Shown: piece by piece, positions 8,221 to 13,260 of the stretch | How the letters are laid out: the number at the start of each line of letters is the position of its first letter | Numbering within the stretch: the stretch's first letter is position 1 | Source of the DNA: an uncultured bacterium | GTDB lineage: Bacteria; Bacillota; Clostridia; Lachnospirales; Lachnospiraceae | Length of the DNA: 41,336 nt | Assembly: GCA_947647735.1 (NCBI GenBank) | Contig: CANSLJ010000033.1 | Coordinates: 1 to 41,336 of the forward strand | Reading direction: 5' to 3' | The notes under the pieces: model-generated | Told to the model about the DNA's origin: nothing | Databases searched by the model: none | The model's input: only the letters and a program-made list of their open reading frames with translations | Program-made: the position numbers and the translations under genes

Positions 8221-8360
8221 TTTCAAAAATAAGTATTTTAATAAAGTTGTCAGTTTTTTAATCTTCTGATGATAAAGGATTTAAATTCTATTTAACAAAA
8301 AAAGTTTTCTAAGTAAATAATGAATATTTACACTCATTGTTTACATATTACCAACACACA

Positions 8361-8497
8361 GACCGGAGGAAAAATTATTTCTTAAGGAGCCCCTTAAAAA
8401 GCGTCGGCACTTAGCGGGGTAGTTCACGAGCTTAGTGTCCGCTACGCTTTTTACGGAGCGAGAGCGCGGCGACGAAGAAATTATTTTCCCTCCGGTC
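8361..8497 (+). repeat. three-way-junction palindromic repeat, copy 1
   Basis: Outer arms 8361-8383 and 8475-8497 are complementary at 21 of 23 positions. The inner hairpin pairs 8395-8404 with 8444-8453 (a TAAAAAGCGT stem), then CGG and CACT with their complements, a T-T mismatch (8412/8433), AGC/GCT, and a 14-nt loop at 8416-8429. On the 3' side, GC-GAGA-GC at 8458-8465 forms a GNRA-type mini-hairpin. The core motifs CACTTAGCGGGGTA (8408-8421) and CGAGCTTAGTGTCCGC (8427-8442) recur in the second copy at 13128-13260 on the other strand. The inner stem ends in A5/T5 tracts and could terminate transcription in either direction. Confidence 0.85.
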
Positions 8498-8587
8498 GTC
8501 CGTTTTAATCCCCCCAACCCCCCATTTCATCACCCCTTTGTGCAAATCTCCTAAATTTCTCCCCCAATTTTAAGAACTTATTCTGGG

Positions 8588-8634
8588 CTACAAAATCTTG
8601 ACAAGGGAAAAAACAGTGCTACAATATATGGTAG
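8588..8634 (+). promoter_or_regulatory. nrdD promoter with two NrdR-like boxes
   Basis: TTGACA (8598-8603) and TACAAT (8620-8625) are separated by 16 bp. The -10 lies inside the near-palindrome CTACAATATATGGTAG (8619-8634), which resembles the 16-bp NrdR box. A second, degenerate box beginning CTACAA starts at 8588, exactly 31 bp upstream, the three-helical-turn spacing typical of paired NrdR sites. NrdR represses ribonucleotide reductase genes when dATP is plentiful. Confidence 0.65.
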
Positions 8635-13127: not shown

Positions 13128-13260
13128 GTCATAAAGAGCATATATCCTACGAAGACACGCTTTCGCTTGGAGAAAAACGCAGCGGGTACTAAGCTCGAAA
13201 ATACCTCGCTAAGTACCGGCGTTTTTCTACAGTCTTCGTAGGATATATGCTCTTTATGAC
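13128..13260 (-). repeat. three-way-junction palindromic repeat, copy 2
   Basis: Outer arms 13128-13156 and 13232-13260 are perfect 29-bp complements. The inner hairpin pairs AGAAAAACGC (13171-13180) with GCGTTTTTCT (13219-13228), then GGTACT with AGTACC, an A-A mismatch (13191/13211) and AGC with GCT. Read on the minus strand, TACTTAGCGAGGTA (13215-13202) and CGAGCTTAGTACCCGC (13197-13182) match copy 1. A GC-GAAA-GC mini-hairpin lies in the segment corresponding to 13157-13170, on the same side as in copy 1. The outer arms share no sequence with those of copy 1. Confidence 0.9.

Follow-up and report, generated by a model that had tools for sequence, protein, structure and literature searches.

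Two intergenic stretches in a contig of an uncultured Lachnospiraceae bacterium, each predicted to fold into a three-way junction, raise the question of what such repeats are and whether their fold serves as RNA or as DNA. They lie in a window of 41,336 nucleotides, the whole stretch of DNA that was analysed, for which a sequence-only reading had proposed one structured repeat in two copies. Both three-way-junction repeats were found where that reading had placed them (Table 1); the observation was right and, indeed, understated. Each element consists of long outer arms, a middle stem capped by a core hairpin with a T.T mismatch, and a one-sided GC-GNRA-GC mini-hairpin. The core, the mismatch and the mini-hairpin, said to be shared, are present in both elements, the core of element 1 carrying the variant GCGGGG where GCGAGG is otherwise found. 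Folding of each element on its own strand was compared with dinucleotide shuffles and gave z-scores of -6.5 for element 1 and -13.1 for element 2 (0/200 shuffles each). A covariance model, R1, was built from 36 copies, elements 1 and 2 themselves among them, and matched exactly these two elements in the window and no other copy.

Table 1. Parts of the two three-way-junction elements, in window coordinates.
Feature	Positions	Strand	Remarks
Element 1, whole repeat	8361..8497	+	model match 8374-8486, 102.3 bits
Element 1, left outer arm	8361..8381	+	pairs with 8477-8497; 19/21 positions complementary
Element 1, right outer arm	8477..8497	+	partner of 8361-8381
Element 1, core hairpin with T.T mismatch	8408..8437	+	variant GCGGGG for GCGAGG
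Element 1, GC-GAGA-GC mini-hairpin with GNRA loop	8458..8465	+	
Element 2, whole repeat	13128..13260	-	model match 13138-13249, 113 bits
Element 2, 5' outer arm (own strand)	13232..13260	-	29/29 complementary to 13128-13156
Element 2, 3' outer arm (own strand)	13128..13156	-	partner of 13232-13260
Element 2, core hairpin with T.T mismatch and tandem G.A	13187..13215	-	
Element 2, GC-GAAA-GC mini-hairpin with GNRA loop	13159..13166	-	

A known Rfam family was rejected as the identity of the repeat: there was no gathering match within the window, only sub-threshold matches were obtained for 8300-8560, and nothing overlapped the cores in seven loci. Nor was a prior description of the repeat family met in the literature searched, in agreement with the earlier remark that no named element of this form was known.

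An exact core pattern gave 15 matches in the genome to which the window belongs (hereafter the own genome) versus 0 for the reversed control, and a slightly looser core gave 16 there and 42 in the congener G003. For R1, 38 copies had been preselected for diversity from 129, of which L081 and L253 were removed by eye. At E 0.01 this model recovered at least 76 copies in the own genome and at least 147 in G003, as well as 53 in G222, 51 in G215, 18 in G101 and 16 in G121, such counts being lower bounds where candidates exceeded 150, since at most 150 first-look candidates were scored per genome. The congeners G005 and G008 hold 7 and 4 copies. The expectation that the own genome would contain further copies, mostly intergenic and with covarying stems, was borne out. 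When 15 candidates per genome were scored at E 0.001, R1 matched 132 of the 250 genomes sampled from the same family (131 of 249 genera), which we take, from the record titles and general taxonomy, to be the Lachnospiraceae. The exact core occurred in 8 of 61 genomes of an order-level sample and was absent from 24 of 24 sampled genomes of other families in the order. Scanning GTDB contigs yielded at least 119 stretches with the core, and among the matches listed the titles named Lachnospiraceae, other Clostridia or nothing finer than 'bacterium'. Spread by plasmids or viruses was rejected, as plasmids gave no match to element 1 and IMG/VR gave 0 exact core matches.

Compensatory changes in the stems had been read as selection for a fold, not just for sequence. 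Among the 36 model copies, 24 of 31 pairs had changed on both sides, and the number of cells so changed was 196, versus a shuffled mean of 59.2. Sixty own-genome copies, taken from the 76 counted, were aligned to the model structure; 93.7% of their cells were standard pairs versus 30-46% in slid controls, a control that leans towards this structure, which had itself been derived from sequences of this kind and had guided the alignment of the 60 copies. In this set 21 of 31 pairs had changed on both sides (270 cells, shuffled mean 95.9). The number of further pair types showed no excess over shuffles in either set. Covarying stems, as looked for in a structured RNA family, were found, G.U being nearly absent from the own copies, and the conserved three-way-junction fold with its compensatory changes is upheld by strong covariation in both sets of copies. 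As for selection, the T.T mismatch, the tandem G.A and the GNRA loop, conserved though unpaired, speak for a degree of selection on the core. The covariation of the stems, however, can also be obtained by arm-to-arm templated correction, to which the lack of a consistent G-U preference and the pattern of changes between orthologues both point.

Stems kept as RNA should tolerate G.U more than A.C, and the two mismatches were therefore counted. The outer arms of 201 elements, a set from which elements with a weak arm match had been dropped, contained 55 G.U and 52 A.C. Only 8 of 1854 cells were G.U in the 60 own copies, compared with 53 of 770 pairs in 35 distinct tRNAs from the same loci; A.C in these tRNAs is not comparable, because ARAGORN, with which they were drawn, draws accepted pairs only. 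A looser alignment gave 46 G.U versus 27 A.C in the inner 24 outer-stem pairs and 44 A.C versus 4 G.U in the stem adjoining the core. The own copies held 27 A.C, 15 of them at one column, versus 8 G.U, and 13 A.C versus 1 G.U when the outer arms were taken by themselves. Mismatch skews occur in both directions, and there is no consistent G-U preference. The orientation of 129 full elements relative to genes, set by a simple ORF caller, was -- in 51, ++ in 30, convergent in 17 and divergent in 16, while 6 lay inside ORFs and 9 had one side missing, which argues against transcription in one orientation. In the mini-hairpin loops a purine occupied the third position in 214 of the 214 scored, the first G and the last A being demanded by the search pattern and copies without the pattern being left unscored; a purine at this position is the GNRA rule of RNA.

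Six orthologous pairs of elements were compared, L017/L363 and L103/L356, whose arms align poorly, and the self-hit L122 being left aside. They showed 22 double Watson-Crick changes, 1 other double change and 13 single changes, and 304 pairs had stayed the same. Changes were mostly single in the three close pairs of elements (G005/G008; 8 single, 2 double) and mostly double in the three distant ones (20 double, 5 single). Where one copy of a close pair (L465/L463) has a two-base GA step, its orthologue has TC, which complements the opposite arm exactly; this one case is what template-switch correction would leave. The same two copies (G005:C7, G008:C75) have a longer apical hairpin, and their tandem G.A step is perfectly paired in one of them. 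Because there is no consistent G-U preference and gene direction is ignored, a DNA hairpin is favoured over an RNA gene, if not proven, its arms being kept paired by arm-templated correction and/or by selection on the folded DNA. A role of the element as DNA, already considered in the sequence-only reading, stays a live option.

Element 1 is flanked by an FGGY-kinase gene and nrdD, element 2 by a Na/H-exchanger-type gene and a glycosyl-hydrolase-25 gene, and neither interval contains a terminator-like site. Comparison of orthologous sites revealed that element 1 is absent from G003, G007, G001 and G006, where the interval is much shorter; the boundary of the insertion is inexact, since the own genome also carries extra AT-rich bases beside element 1. 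In G005 and G008 the interval at this site is longer, yet no copy was detected there, and each has one copy downstream of nrdD. A promoter-like sequence (TTGACA-16-TACAAT) lies upstream of nrdD at window positions 8598-8625. This promoter-like site is retained in the four congeners without element 1, and element 1 is located upstream of it. Element 2 is absent from G001, G005, G008 and G007, and its site is not simply empty in all relatives, because G003 holds a decayed family copy (30.5 bits) at that place. With four congeners lacking each element, the window copies show the presence and absence looked for in a miniature inverted-repeat transposable element (MITE).

In other genomes, copies of 174-225 bp were bounded by GTWACWGTTCA inverted repeats around the core. 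The 8-bp flanks of 22 end-bounded placements with a core, some of which are alternative pairings of the same ends, were identical in 9, differed by one mismatch in 3 and by two in 1, and had at least four mismatches in 9. Terminal inverted repeats and target-site duplications, the marks of a MITE, were thus both found in other genomes. Sharing of flanking 7-, 8- and 9-mers exceeded permutation in a mixed set of 119 copies (observed values reached in 0/200 permutations each). For the 40 copies of G003 the observed values for 7, 8 and 9 bases were reached in 8, 27 and 20 of 200 permutations, and for the 12 copies of G061 in 71, 5 and 23. The 56 own-genome copies showed no flank-repeat excess (157, 192 and 117 of 200 permutations) and just 4 ends within one mismatch versus 2 for a backwards control; own-genome copies were consequently classed by homology. 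Neither window copy has a detectable target duplication or recognisable terminal inverted repeats, and both look inactive. Outside the own genome the repeats are well supported as transposons; for the window copies we infer this identity by homology. The idea that the outer arms are inverted copies of the target was dropped, as further copies show the arms to be homologous and diverged.

Not all copies have the same ends. Eleven placements had GGTAATTGCGAAACT-like ends, and 7 of these 11 share at least 8 flanking bases, one of them 16, compared with 13 of 2000 random pairs. The 8-bp duplication was seen with GTWACWGTTCA ends and not with GGTAATTGCGAAACT ends, at which the flanking repeats are longer, and the latter combination suggests a second transposase. 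GGTAATTGCGAAACT-like ends flanked by repeats of 8-16 bases were observed in the copies at L081, L090, L095, L300, L323, L324 and L326. The 173 bp of L202:1501-1673 (G003:C84) form a unit that has GTAACAGTTCAGCC-type ends and an 8-bp duplication but in which no core was detected; the vehicle therefore moves also without the core.

A candidate source of transposase was found in G139. Locus L467 is an intact IS66-family element of 2358 bp with GTTACTGTTCA ends, an 8-bp duplication (GCCGGAAT) and a 558-aa IS66-family transposase (PF03050, E 1.6e-25). The own genome contains an IS66 remnant ending in GTAACAGTTCAGCC, the outer end lying 43 bases past the stop, and PF05717 was found in the own genome only, among six genomes searched. 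Of nine IS66 loci examined, L467 alone had ends matching the repeat family. GTAAGCG ends together with an 8-bp duplication mark a further IS66 element (L475), and GTAAGCG-like ends, but no duplication, were seen at L474; convincing ends were not found at the other IS66 loci examined. A large expansion was observed in G061, a Robinsoniella sp. MAG (L071, L143, L144, L156), with 455 GTAACAGTTCAGCC matches at up to one mismatch. PF03050 had no match in this genome, nor in G003 with its 32 ends. Because many G061 contigs stop about 40 bases inside a GTAACAGTTCAGCC-type end, an unassembled high-copy element may be present there. R1 found no core inside the IS66 elements of L467, L475, L474 and L228 at E 10, and none at E 1 within IS66 elements in 30 loci searched beside the window. 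The presumed IS66 link stands on one intact element (L467) and one remnant.

Core hairpins were also encountered without a detected outer stem, often in tandem. Of 50 such cases, 27 were ++, 4 --, 5 +- and 4 -+, while 6 lay inside ORFs and 4 had one side missing; lone and full copies were split by an arm-score cut-off, and the 50 include a few full elements whose arms are weak. Loci with lone or tandem core hairpins and no junction include L115, L120, L026, L128, L129, L139 and L060. In L120 a ZTP riboswitch (2510-2595, -) is followed closely, on the same strand, by two core hairpins in tandem (2404-2472, -), and at L128:3046-3190 three are arrayed between tRNA genes on the opposite strand. 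The predominant transcript orientation of the lone hairpins suggests an RNA use of the hairpin. For this reason we tentatively consider, as something that may well prove wrong, that the core hairpin CTTRRYGAG...CGARYYTAG (T.T, tandem G.A) is a Lachnospiraceae-wide signal for one putative nucleic-acid-binding protein, used alone in mRNAs; mini-transposons of two or more classes, differing in their ends, would have captured it and would use it as folded DNA to recruit a host factor.

The repeats form a MITE-like family that is widespread and has a structured core for which Rfam has no entry, and we put the probability that elements 1 and 2 are relic copies of such a short, gene-less, non-autonomous DNA transposon at roughly 0.7. 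Copies would have been moved in trans, as double-stranded DNA, by an IS66-type DDE transposase, and a second transposase may lie behind those with other ends and longer flanking repeats. The interior would act, if at all, as folded single-stranded DNA, either on the lagging strand or as an extruded hairpin. A change in one arm may be copied into the opposite arm by template switching on the hairpin, which would keep the arms complementary, and/or they may stay so since mobility requires the DNA to be folded. For the conserved core, with its T.T mismatch, tandem G.A and one-sided GNRA mini-hairpin, the probable role is that of a binding site for a putative protein.

The fold z-scores, the stem covariation, the invariable purine in the loop, the gene orientation of most lone core hairpins and the pair of them just downstream of the ZTP riboswitch would also be expected of a structured non-coding or cis-acting RNA, transcribed from the + strand into a three-way junction with a GNRA loop, bound by a protein or an RNA, and covarying under RNA selection. 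We nevertheless regard such an RNA as unlikely, as full elements have no transcript orientation, G.U is not favoured over A.C overall and is rare compared with tRNA, the congener sites are empty and element 1 precedes the promoter-like site of nrdD. Somewhat less likely again is that the elements are passive palindromes, old insertions in which template-switch mutation alone maintains pairing and fold and core are functionless. This would fit the single changes in close orthologues, the double ones in distant orthologues and the GA step of L465/L463; the T.T mismatch, the tandem G.A and the GNRA loop, however, persist across genera, while template switching would erase them.

Two further explanations have very little to commend them. 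That the repeats are transcription terminators or mRNA-end hairpins could be imagined from copies that are mostly intergenic and often near a stop codon, but was rejected, given that terminator-like sites are missing from both window intervals and that divergent pairs (16) are as common as convergent ones (17, n = 129). Scarcely conceivable, and lowest of all in our estimate, is a REP-like element mobilised by a RayT/Y1 transposase, despite the many intergenic hairpin repeats with mismatches. The RayT/TnpA-like enzyme that had been proposed as a partner does not track the repeats: in the congener G006, 13 Y1_Tnp matches go with no exact core at all, although related copies were detected there by BLAST, and the own genome, with its 15-16 exact cores, contains a single Y1 fragment. 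A RayT/IS200 mobiliser was rejected on these counts. The 8-bp target duplications speak against it too. A CGTC-tagged REP, prompted by GTCC beside the right arm, was likewise discarded, as tag position, size and ends differ.

If the DNA transposon reading is correct, near-perfect covariation, usually taken as proof of RNA selection, occurs here in an apparent mobile DNA hairpin, and the family offers a natural test of template-switch maintenance versus selection on the fold. It is a non-Rfam repeat family present in 132 of the 250 sampled genomes of a major gut family and reaching at least 76 and at least 147 copies in two genomes. The occurrence of the same core in differently ended elements and in lone hairpins along genes points to a putative binding partner.

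Among known systems, the bcr1 repeats of the Bacillus cereus group resemble the present family: in the available text (PMC2267715) they measure about 150 bp, are predicted to share a conserved structure and show features of mobile elements. They belong to another host group and are likened by description, not sequence. REPs, as far as the available parts of the reports describe them, measure 20-40 bp, carry GTAG or CGTC tags and, like REPINs, are associated with RayT (PMC3733652, PMC3116915). Like the present repeats, they are palindromic, occur in many intergenic copies and can fold as DNA or RNA (PMC3733652), but our unit is larger, its ends differ and Y1 transposases do not track it. Template switching was proposed as a mutation process for RNA genes (PMC8794818, available part); the double changes that restore pairing and the few G.U intermediates are alike, the difference being that this is a mutation process for RNA genes and not a mobile element. 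A close parallel is with MITEs mobilised by IS66-family transposases (PF03050), which are likewise short and non-coding, with IS66-family-like inverted ends and 8-bp target duplications. Unlike these, the present family has a conserved three-way-junction core, which R1 did not find in four IS66 loci, and its related copies occur also with other ends.
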